Assembly: GCF_003851885.1 (NCBI RefSeq)
Contig: NZ_BHZE01000006.1
Span: 62,001-126,000, forward strand
Direction: 5' to 3'
DNA: 64,000 bases
Origin: Thermaurantimonas aggregans
Lineage (GTDB): Bacteria > Bacteroidota > Bacteroidia > Flavobacteriales > Schleiferiaceae
In this document: in pieces, positions 33,474 to 36,531 of the stretch
Layout of the letters: each line of letters begins with the position of its first letter
How positions within the stretch are numbered: position 1 is the first letter of the stretch
Notes under the pieces: model-generated
Databases searched by the model: none
The model's input: the letters and a program-made list of their open reading frames with translations, nothing else
What the model was told of the DNA's origin: nothing
Translations under genes and position numbers: made by a program

Positions 33474-33503
33474 TTGCAAATTTTTTAAGATAGTGTACTT
33501 TTG
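33474..33503 (+). promoter_or_regulatory. Promoter of the T9SS cargo gene
   Basis: TTG at 33474-33476, a 19-base spacer and TACTTTTG at 33496-33503 match the consensus exactly. The ATG follows 20 bases later. Confidence 0.75.
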
Positions 33504-33522: not shown

Positions 33523-36144
33523 ATGAAAAGAATTATACCATTTTTTTTTGTAGTGATTGGCTCTCAGGCTCAGTTTATAAGTTCGCCACCCAATAGAGAT
33601 GGTTCCATATCCACCGGAGAATACGGCGACCACACGAATGGTCGAAATGCCTGGTCCGACGGTACGCGTACATGGTACATGACCTGGGATAATACCAATC
33701 TTTATCTCGCGGTTAACAGTAATGGAAATGCAACTGATGATGAGTTTGTGATTTATATCGACACAGACCCGCAAACACCTGTAAACGGGGGTTCGAATTC
33801 AAATGGTTCATTAGCAGGAATTAATTTCGATGGAGTTGAATACACAAGACTACCATTTAGAGCAAATTTTTTGGCATACATACGAAATGGTTATCACCAA
33901 CATAGAACTCACAACGGAAGTGGTGGATGGAACTCGAATGTTGACAATTCAACTGATATTGTTAAAACCACTTCAGGTAACTTACAAGAAATAGCTATAA
34001 ATTGGTCATTGATGGGAGGTAGACCTTCGAGTTTTAATTTTATTATTTATTTAAATGGCGGAACTGCATATGGAGGGACTTCCATCACTGGTGCAAGTGC
34101 AGATGGAGGAACGGCATCAGATTTGACAGGAAGACAATATTTTTCTATTGAGAGTACAGGCGATGGTTCATCTACACCGCCATTTTCTAGGCTATGCTAT
34201 GTAAATCAAATCGCGTCAAACAACATAAGTGCTTATGGAAGTTCATTTTTTGGAGTAACCGTAGCCGATAATCAGACTACAACTTTAAACACAAACTTGA
34301 CAATTGAAAGTTTTTTACGTGTAGAAGGCGGGTGCACATGGACTGTATCAGGCGATAGGACTGTGACTTTTACAGGTAGTACTGCTACGCTCTTTAACTC
34401 CGGTTTTATGAATGCCAATCCATCGTTTGGCAATACAGCAAATTATGATATAGGCAATGGAACTGACGCAACAATACTCACCCTTGAAGGGCTTTCAAAC
34501 ATTGATGTGTTCAATTTTAATATCAAGAATTCTTCAACATGTCGCATCAACGGTCGGCAATTAAGAACAGGAAATACCGGAACAATAACGGTAGAAAACG
34601 GAGGAGTTCTGGAAGCAAATGCAACCAACTCTATATTAGCTGAATGGGGTGGAACTTCTAATGTGACAATAAATTCTGGTGGTTTATTACGGGTAACTTC
34701 AGGTTCTAATCTGGATATTACAACCGATAATCTTACAAACAATGCATCAGAAGGTATTTTGATTGAAGCCAATTCCCTTACTTCGTATGGAGCATTGCGC
34801 TTTACATCTTCTTACAGCGGAACAGGCACAGTCACTCAACAACGGTATCTTCGCTCGGGCACCGGTAATGCTGGTTGGAATGCTATTTCTGCCTCAATGA
34901 ATGCCAGTACTGCCAGTCATTTTGGAACAATTGGTACGGATGTTCATGTCAATACCAAAAATTTGTACCGATGGGATGGCTCTGAATGGGTGAATATTAC
35001 TAATGGAAGTTCGACTATCACACCTGGTATCGGTTATTACGGTTTTGTGGGCACCAACGGTATTCAAACCACTGGAGATGTTTACAATTTTACCGGAACT
35101 CCAAATACCTCCATTACAGCACCAAGTTTAACTTTTGATAATCCGGGTTCAGGGGTTACCTTCACCATATCTGGTAGCACATCTAATCAAGGTTGGAATC
35201 TTATTGGTAATCCATTTACTTGTCCTTTGGATTTCAATACTTTTACAAGAACAAACGTCGATGATGCTTTTTACATCTTTACAGGCACTGGTTATCATTC
35301 ATACGCCGGAGGGGGACTTCCTAATTTATTAATCGGCCCCATGCAAGCCTTTTGGGTAAAAGCAAATGCTGCTTCACCTTCGCTTGGTACTTCTTGGTCA
35401 ATGTCGTCAAACGGAAGTGTTCATTCTAATCCGGATTTACATAGAGGTACCAGCATTGAAGATTTCTTTGTGCTAGATGTAGAAGATGCCAATGACAGCG
35501 AAAAAACCGACCGACTGACCATTTCAATACATAACTCAGCAACCGATGATTTCGACAACGAATGGGATGCCTGGAAATTGCGCAACAGTGCCGGCTATCC
35601 TAATATCTACACAAAATACAACAATAATGCAATGGCAATTAATGCTGTACCTTATGCCAGCGGACTGAAAACTTTTGATGTCGGTTTTATCTCTACCCTT
35701 CACAATCATCCTTACACAATTCATCTTCGTGATCAATACCTGACAAACGGATATGGTGTATATTTAGAAGACAAAAAATTAAACCTTACACACGATTTTA
35801 AAAATGGAGCTTACACATTTATCAATGACACAATTTTTAAAGACCGCTTCATACTTAAGTTCAGCGCTATCGATCCTTTATCAACTAACCAAGCAGAAGT
35901 GCCAAAAGCCTCACCCTATCAAGCCTGGGTACACGACGGCCAGATTCATCTAAAAGGCTTTGAAAACCTCGGCCGTACTACCCTGAAAGTGACCGATATG
36001 ACCGGCAAGGTAATTAAAGTTTGGAATGTAGATATTGCCGAAGGCGCCACCACTACATTTGCTTTGCCAAACCTGGCAAAGGGGGTTTATGTACTGAACA
36101 TTGTGGCTGGAAACAATTCAAAAAACATTAAATTTATCTATTAA
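33523..36144 (+). CDS. Large secreted protein with T9SS type A C-terminal sorting domain
   Basis: An 873-residue secreted protein. The signal peptide MKRIIPFFFVVIGSQAQ is short. Residues 20-220 form a beta-rich domain of carbohydrate-binding character (TWYMTWDNTNLYLAVNSNGN, DDEFVIYIDTDPQT). The middle (about 230-640) is a Thr/Ser/Asn-rich filamentous-looking region with repeated short strands (INSGGLLRVTSGSNLDIT). The end reads LKVTDMTGKVIKVWNV and LAKGVYVLNIVAG, a T9SS sorting domain that is cleaved when the protein is anchored or released at the surface. No catalytic site is recognised. It has its own promoter, and a PID-CTERM-like mini-protein follows 18 bases later. Confidence 0.85.
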   Translation: MKRIIPFFFVVIGSQAQFISSPPNRDGSISTGEYGDHTNGRNAWSDGTRTWYMTWDNTNLYLAVNSNGNATDDEFVIYIDTDPQTPVNGGSNSNGSLAGINFDGVEYTRLPFRANFLAYIRNGYHQHRTHNGSGGWNSNVDNSTDIVKTTSGNLQEIAINWSLMGGRPSSFNFIIYLNGGTAYGGTSITGASADGGTASDLTGRQYFSIESTGDGSSTPPFSRLCYVNQIASNNISAYGSSFFGVTVADNQTTTLNTNLTIESFLRVEGGCTWTVSGDRTVTFTGSTATLFNSGFMNANPSFGNTANYDIGNGTDATILTLEGLSNIDVFNFNIKNSSTCRINGRQLRTGNTGTITVENGGVLEANATNSILAEWGGTSNVTINSGGLLRVTSGSNLDITTDNLTNNASEGILIEANSLTSYGALRFTSSYSGTGTVTQQRYLRSGTGNAGWNAISASMNASTASHFGTIGTDVHVNTKNLYRWDGSEWVNITNGSSTITPGIGYYGFVGTNGIQTTGDVYNFTGTPNTSITAPSLTFDNPGSGVTFTISGSTSNQGWNLIGNPFTCPLDFNTFTRTNVDDAFYIFTGTGYHSYAGGGLPNLLIGPMQAFWVKANAASPSLGTSWSMSSNGSVHSNPDLHRGTSIEDFFVLDVEDANDSEKTDRLTISIHNSATDDFDNEWDAWKLRNSAGYPNIYTKYNNNAMAINAVPYASGLKTFDVGFISTLHNHPYTIHLRDQYLTNGYGVYLEDKKLNLTHDFKNGAYTFINDTIFKDRFILKFSAIDPLSTNQAEVPKASPYQAWVHDGQIHLKGFENLGRTTLKVTDMTGKVIKVWNVDIAEGATTTFALPNLAKGVYVLNIVAGNNSKNIKFIY

Positions 36145-36162
36145 TAACAAAAATCTGATCAT

Positions 36163-36330
36163 ATGAAAAAGTCTTCTGTTCTTCTTGTTATTTTGATTCT
36201 ATCATTTCCTTTATTCACCTATGCTCAACCTGATCCTCCGGGAGGACCAGTGCCTGTAGATGGTGCCGTTGGTTTGCTTGCTTTGGCTGGTGCCGCGTAT
36301 GGAGCGTACAAGAGGAGAATCAAAGAATAA
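36163..36330 (+). CDS. PID-CTERM-like sorting-domain mini-protein
   Basis: A 55-residue protein. The signal peptide MKKSSVLLVILILSFPLFTYA is followed by QPDPPGGPVPVDGAVGLLAL and then AGAAYGAYKRRIKE. The pattern Pro-Val-Asp-Gly, a hydrophobic helix with AGAAYGA, then basic residues matches the PID-CTERM sorting domain of Bacteroidota. In this mini-protein nearly the whole mature chain is the sorting signal. It lies 18 bases after the T9SS cargo and ends at a strong terminator, so both are on one transcript. Confidence 0.75.
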   Translation: MKKSSVLLVILILSFPLFTYAQPDPPGGPVPVDGAVGLLALAGAAYGAYKRRIKE

Positions 36331-36352: not shown

Positions 36353-36378
36353 GCCGGTCTCTGTACCGGCTTTTTTAT
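36353..36378 (+). terminator. Terminator of the T9SS cargo operon
   Basis: GCCGGT, a six-base loop and ACCGGC followed by a T-rich run (TTTTTTATTTTT) sit 22 bases after the mini-protein stop. Confidence 0.85.
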
Positions 36379-36531
36379 TTTTAGGTTTTTCCATAATACT
36401 CTAAAGGCGTTTTATACAAAGCCATCTGATAGCAATTTCAAACTCCTAAAACAAAATTTTTTTGCTGAATTATCGGACTCGATTAAAACCATATTCAAAT
36501 TTTGCAAGTTATACATCTTGCACACCGACTA

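Follow-up and report, generated by a model that had tools for sequence, protein, structure and literature searches.

A type IX secretion cargo gene followed by a PID-CTERM mini-protein gene in Thermaurantimonas aggregans: a probable target of exosortase F

Introduction

The window analysed here, a stretch of 64,000 nucleotides from Thermaurantimonas aggregans, contains a gene for a large cargo of the type IX secretion system (T9SS) and, close behind it, a gene for a protein of 55 residues (the mini-protein) that carries a sorting signal of a different kind. The question raised by this locus is why two proteins with two different sorting signals should be encoded side by side, and which enzyme would act on the smaller of them.

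Results

Arrangement of the locus

The two open reading frames are found at 33523-36144 and 36163-36330, which bears out the original prediction of a cargo followed 18 bases later by a 55-residue protein. Its proposal that both genes end at one terminator also holds, in that no terminator is present between them (36145..36162) and a single terminator-like hairpin begins at 36353. A promoter-like site lies 5′ of the cargo gene; the Bacteroidetes-type promoter consensus is TAnnTTTG. The features are given below, those termed putative or likely having been read from the sequence.

33474..33503, + strand: putative Bacteroidetes-type promoter (TTG, 19 nt, then TACTTTTG, matching TAnnTTTG)
33523..36144, + strand: T9SS type A cargo, 873 aa (TIGR04183 match)
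33523..33570, + strand: cargo N-terminus, likely Sec signal peptide (MKRIIPFFFVVIGSQA / Q...)
34840..35892, + strand: module of about 350 aa (GWNLIGNP ... DAWKL ... LEDKKLNLTHDF ... RFILKF), from BLAST of cargo bodies and alignment
35956..36135, + strand: C-terminal T9SS sorting domain, its starting YPNP motif replaced by YQAWVHDGQIHLKG (Pfam/TIGR and fold)
36145..36162, + strand: spacer of 18 nt from cargo stop to mini-protein start
36163..36330, + strand: PID-CTERM mini-protein of 55 aa, a proposed substrate of the exosortase XrtF (NF046080 match and family conservation)
36163..36225, + strand: likely signal peptide of the mini-protein (MKKSSVLLVILILSFPLFTYA / Q), AQP being conserved in the family
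36226..36261, + strand: predicted short mature peptide QPDPPGGPVPVD (conserved Pro pattern; both cleavages predicted)
36250..36324, + strand: PID_CTERM signal, residues 30-54, with PVDG motif, hydrophobic helix AVGLLALAGAAYGAY and basic end KRRIKE (NF046080)
36353..36380, + strand: terminator-like hairpin GCCGGTCTCTGTACCGGC-TTTTTTATTT (36353-36370) with a T run, 3′ of the mini-protein gene

The two genes are likely to constitute a unit that encodes a T9SS surface protein together with a cargo-less exosortase substrate dedicated to this T9SS partner. A sortase/LPXTG origin was rejected, with scores under the cut-offs for TIGR01167 (12.3 bits, cut-off 15.9) and PF00746 (14.9 bits, cut-off 20) and no LPXTG motif.

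The T9SS cargo

The tail of the window cargo is that of the known T9SS type A proteins (TIGR04183 / PF18962). It passes TIGR04183 with 29.6 bits (cut-off 23), the whole protein scores slightly below the cut-off of Pfam PF18962 (26.3 versus 27 bits), and the predicted tail fold, which contains the beta-sandwich typical of T9SS tails, resembles the C-terminal domains of T9SS proteins solved as 8gl8_D and 8qb1 (TM-scores of 0.67-0.69 by target) as well as DUF3244 Ig-like proteins. The window cargo differs from the type A set in being co-encoded with a small, proposed exosortase substrate and in the absence of the YPNP start. Structure prediction of the shared module is usable only for the C-terminal half and the tail; the N-terminal region of the cargo was predicted with a mean pLDDT of only 33.5, and the cargo sequence gave no meaningful match to solved structures.

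At the start of the cargo, window positions 33577-34425 look like a domain of the sugar-binding or DOMON type, after which come beta-helix-like repeats, and this region gave no family match.

The mini-protein and its family

The mini-protein, labelled PID-CTERM-like in the original prediction, is a true PID-CTERM protein, which passes the NF046080 (PID_CTERM) model with 31.5 bits (cut-off 26, E 1.1e-7) over the full profile (1-25). Its C-terminus, PVDGAVGLLALAGAAYGAYKRRIKE, comprises a P-I/V-D-G motif, a hydrophobic helix and a basic end that coincides with the end of the protein, and the same layout is found in 167 anchored mini-proteins. A likely N-terminal Sec signal peptide can be seen by eye, at a position that is conserved in the family. 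Across the 167 sequences there is strong conservation of the P-I-D-G-G motif, of the helix and of the Lys-Lys behind it, and the segment ahead of PID is Pro-rich and more variable. Counted from a plausible Gln +1 to PID, this segment has a median of 15 residues and about 31% Pro; 34 mini-proteins have at least two Cys in it. Conservation extends over the mature mini-protein as a whole (QP..P..P.PIDGG..LL.AAG.A.G.KK). The earlier description of the protein as almost only a sorting signal falls short, in that there is partial conservation also in the short segment ahead of PID, with its Pro residues or Cys pair. The two Cys are possibly bridged by a disulfide, which would close a loop in the mature peptide.

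Two-Cys mini-proteins (CWPPPCIPIDGG, CGGPFPPCPVPIDGG) occur in some Flavobacteriales (loci L085, L089, L099, L109, L114, L117 and L131).

In the order 22 of 119 genomes carry PID_CTERM, and in the phylum 62 of 395, with at most 9 copies per genome; the open frames concerned are nearly all shorter than 200 aa. PID-CTERM thus sits almost only on proteins without a further cargo domain. Use of the signal as a tag on large proteins was considered and rejected: the sole large frame (995 aa, in L211) encodes a multi-span membrane protein of 973 aa (L211:5115-8036, minus strand) that ends in VPIDGEVWVLLAGGLALAVGQLRR (PIDGE), and the other listed frames have at most 201 aa. The L211 protein seems to belong to another CTERM class, perhaps MSEP-CTERM, served by an exosortase of its own.

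PEP-CTERM signals tag a wide variety of proteins, many of them large. PID-CTERM shares with the PEP-CTERM / EpsH system a signature motif, one helix and a basic end, a Cys-Arg-His exosortase and, in some loci, polysaccharide genes nearby, and differs from it in being placed almost always on a mini-protein with only a short mature peptide.

Pairing with T9SS cargos

In the genome of the window itself (2.67 Mb in 57 contigs; G000) there are four PID_CTERM mini-proteins and 61 T9SS-tail matches, the latter implying that the T9SS machinery is present. Three of the four mini-proteins (the window pair and those on contigs C14 and C12) lie 2-19 nt behind a T9SS-tailed open reading frame, and the probability of at least three of four being so placed by chance is about 6e-5, calculated with about 61 tails and an assumed figure of about 2400 genes. 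The fourth, on contig C1, is followed by an open reading frame of 106 aa (L135:7912-8232, plus strand) that resembles the beginning of a T9SS cargo cut short. In G021, from the same family, the order is reversed, a solo mini-protein being followed directly by a T9SS cargo of 1289 aa (L148).

The arrangement recurs well beyond the family. Among 173 distinct Bacteroidota mini-proteins, drawn from 64 named loci and from about 100 whole-genome regions (a sample that is non-random in phylogeny, several loci coming from related genomes), a same-strand T9SS-tailed open reading frame, recognised with a tail profile built in this analysis, ends within 500 nt upstream in 109 and within 100 nt in 87. In 7 of the 173 the two frames touch or overlap, and in some loci the cargo stop and the mini-protein start overlap by 4 nt. 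As controls, a T9SS-tailed frame lies downstream on the same strand in 5 and in convergent orientation in 2. TIGR04183 independently matches 36 of 38 sampled partner cargos. One of the pairs is that of Phaeocystidibacter luteus (L071), a cultivated relative. The pairs that the original prediction proposed to seek in other genomes are thus recurrent (87 of 173), its alternative, a random placement of mini-proteins with respect to T9SS cargos, is contradicted by the ratio of 87 upstream to 5 downstream neighbours, and the arrangement that it called unusual is common in the Bacteroidota. Moreover, mini-protein and cargo distances correlate, with a Mantel rho, uncorrected for species phylogeny, of 0.64 (maximum of 500 permutations, 0.18).

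In all-against-all BLAST the paired cargo bodies, with the tail removed, form one linked group. In most of them the tail is directly preceded by a module that spans about 330-380 aa (GWNLxGNP ... DAxKL ... LxDxxTG ... RFxL), with SprB or PKD repeats in its place in a minority. Six proteins of the window's genome contain the module strongly, and the top scores are those of the three with mini-proteins; the module cargos C1:162139 and C8:106884 have no adjoining mini-protein, and none was seen alongside the third unpaired module protein, C24:1233. The paired tails of this genome are without the usual YPNP start; this absence was rejected as a general mark of paired tails, many outside the window's family having YPNP.

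Co-occurrence of mini-protein and exosortase

The genomic tie between the mini-protein and XrtF is strong. Across the phylum an exosortase (PF09721) is present in 54 of 62 genomes with PID_CTERM versus 59 of 333 without (p 3e-26), a count that understates the link, as the Pfam model misses the enzyme of the window's own genome. With NF046081 as the probe, the figures for the order are 21 of 22 versus 25 of 97 (p 1e-9), and in 100 Flavobacteriaceae genera, each represented by one genome, the mini-protein occurs in 60 of 61 with XrtF and in 3 of 39 without (p 2e-22), the genomes of these three all being at most 88% complete; all of these p-values ignore shared ancestry. In one Flavobacteriaceae genome with XrtF (G520) no mini-protein was found. 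The sampled genomes of family f6 (Weeksellaceae-like) contain XrtF/XrtX-like exosortases and no PID_CTERM match, and the target there may be a more divergent mini-protein.

Flavobacteriaceae usually have a single mini-protein, which is unpaired with a T9SS cargo and lies beside the riboflavin synthase gene (ribE), adjoining and convergent with it in 30 of 30 inspected loci (L303-L332). T9SS pairing is therefore not needed for the basic role of the mini-protein.

An exosortase gene was also found, by profile search of the neighbours, directly 3′ of 31 of the 173 mini-proteins. Cargo, mini-protein and exosortase stand in a row in 9 loci (L085, L089, L099, L109, L114, L131, L151, L190 and L224), of which L151 is from the window's own family, and mini-protein and exosortase are adjacent in 22 loci without any T9SS cargo. 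Some of the solo loci with XrtX adjoin a Wzc-like protein and sugar-synthesis genes, as named from their sequences. Several exosortase neighbours pass the XrtX model (NF046081) and one partner passes NF046082. A dedicated sorting enzyme, for which the original prediction recommended a search by co-occurrence, is thus identified by neighbourhood and co-occurrence as the exosortase XrtF or XrtX.

The window's genome contains one exosortase, G000:C10:8266-8763, which passes TIGR04128 (Exosortase F; 128.8 bits, cut-off 90) and retains an intact Cys/Arg/His catalytic triad (EGCNG / NQIRL / FFHKY; L268:1486-2031). XrtX was rejected as the identity of this enzyme, the score against NF046081 (Exosortase X) being 126.6 bits, below the cut-off of 170. 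In this respect the genome differs from the PID-CTERM / exosortase X set (NF046080, NF046081, NF046082), to which the window mini-protein is linked by its NF046080 match, and in which XrtX and its partner adjoin mini-proteins in several genomes; to judge from the consecutive accessions NF046080-NF046083, NCBI curators may group PID-CTERM with XrtX. The xrtF gene of the window's genome stands alone and distant from the mini-proteins; its neighbours resemble glutamine amidotransferase and peptidyl-tRNA hydrolase, and TIGR04127, the XrtF-associated membrane protein, is absent beside it. On balance, the mini-protein is very probably a target of exosortase F.

A mini-protein in Flavobacterium johnsoniae

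The enzyme of the exosortase F system of F. johnsoniae (XrtF, Fjoh_1448/1449) belongs to the same family (TIGR04128) as that of the window's genome, and genomes with XrtF have the mini-protein, which in Flavobacteriaceae lies beside ribE, unlike the T9SS-paired mini-protein of the window. Genome G718, which we infer to be F. johnsoniae UW101, encodes XrtF with its TIGR04127 partner and has a porV-porU-gldJ-like gene order as judged by sequence. Its mini-protein gene beside ribE (L362; G718:C1:710501-710767, minus strand, 267 bp) encodes a PIN motif instead of PID, and the product matches no NCBIfam model, consistent with the name 'hypothetical' given to Fjoh_0651. The gene lies 57 open reading frames ahead of one at 778668-780950 that has exactly the 2283 bp of the porZ (Fjoh_0707) fragment (PMC10936215), where Fjoh_0651 would be expected 56 genes ahead of Fjoh_0707. 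Furthermore, Fjoh_0651 has been complemented with a 434-bp fragment that includes the promoter (PMC10936215), a length that suits the mini-protein gene and no other listed open reading frame within two positions. Given this spacing and fragment length, Fjoh_0651 is very probably the mini-protein gene beside ribE.

Deletions of Fjoh_0651, xrtF, Fjoh_1449, Fjoh_0334 (a sugar aminotransferase), porU and porZ have identical listed phenotypes, namely poor sand colonisation, much less biofilm and no zorbs (PMC10936215). By way of the inferred identity, the published genetics support a function of the F. johnsoniae mini-protein in the same process as XrtF, PorU and PorZ. The substrates of XrtF were left as future work in that study (PMC10936215), and its targets were stated in 2025 to be not known (PMC12188702).

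Discussion

A reading that accommodates these observations, and to which we assign a probability of roughly 0.65, is that the mini-protein is cut by XrtF, becomes an envelope conjugate and holds the T9SS cargo, all three of these steps being proposed from the present analysis. The mini-protein would be exported by Sec, its signal peptide presumably being removed ahead of Gln, and would then be held in the inner membrane by the PID-CTERM helix until XrtF, the sole exosortase of the genome, cuts it near PID. The peptide of about 12 residues left after the cut, QPDPPGGPVPVD, may, as with other exosortases, be attached C-terminally to a lipid or polysaccharide of the envelope. The conjugate might then assist in the assembly or retention of the co-encoded T9SS cargo within the matrix on the cell surface, which is the weakest step. 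Counter to this reading stand the isolated position of xrtF in the window's genome, the module cargos that have no mini-protein beside them, the Flavobacteriaceae mini-proteins that adjoin ribE, the f6 genomes with exosortases and no PID_CTERM match, and G520.

Alternatively, the mini-protein could be a small membrane protein that stays uncut and aids secretion of its own cargo, as a tether or chaperone dedicated to it, with an indirect link to the exosortase. The conservation of the mini-protein as a whole, the lack of the tag on large proteins, and the coupling to the cargo, as close as the 4-nt stop/start overlap in some loci, would suit such a role, which is nevertheless unlikely in view of the near one-to-one presence of mini-protein and XrtF, the 22 loci with exosortase adjacency and no T9SS cargo, and the strong conservation of PID-G, helix and basic end, the very layout of an exosortase signal. 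Less probable still is a cleaved and released Pro-rich peptide of about 12 residues, probably pyroglutamyl, that acts as a pheromone-like signal, with the cargo as its receptor or as a co-regulated product. Several paralogues with distinct sequences in one genome, and a short Pro-rich segment that often starts with Gln or contains two Cys, are what a signal might look like; against this, the exosortase loci with solo mini-proteins adjoin polysaccharide-synthesis genes, the F. johnsoniae phenotypes are matrix-like and, as far as seen, the mini-proteins have no linked receptor or regulator. A chance neighbourhood, or a hitch-hiking small open reading frame without function, is conceivable for a gene so short and so easily overlooked, yet is scarcely credible beside conservation across the phylum, the excess of upstream cargos over the 5 control neighbours and the correlated distances of mini-protein and cargo.

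PID-CTERM and XrtX are named in NCBIfam; in the open-access papers searched, no mention of PID-CTERM, or of XrtX as an enzyme, was found, nor any description of the T9SS pairing. As far as seen, three points are new: the recurrent pairing with T9SS cargos, the tie of PID-CTERM mini-proteins to XrtF, and the interpretation of Fjoh_0651 as an XrtF target.

For XrtF, the mini-protein provides a concrete target candidate in about 60% of the sampled Flavobacteriaceae genera, and a short, fixed peptide that could be sought by mass spectrometry. Fjoh_0651, so far annotated as no more than hypothetical although a mutant has already been made, likewise gains a possible interpretation. The recurrent pairing of mini-proteins with T9SS cargos suggests that the exosortase and type IX sorting pathways work together, so that two surface-sorting systems studied apart so far become linked. 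More tentatively, PID-CTERM mini-proteins might be exosortase F targets across the Flavobacteriales, with their lipid or polysaccharide conjugates serving to dock T9SS cargos, and the two systems might then form a single assembly line.
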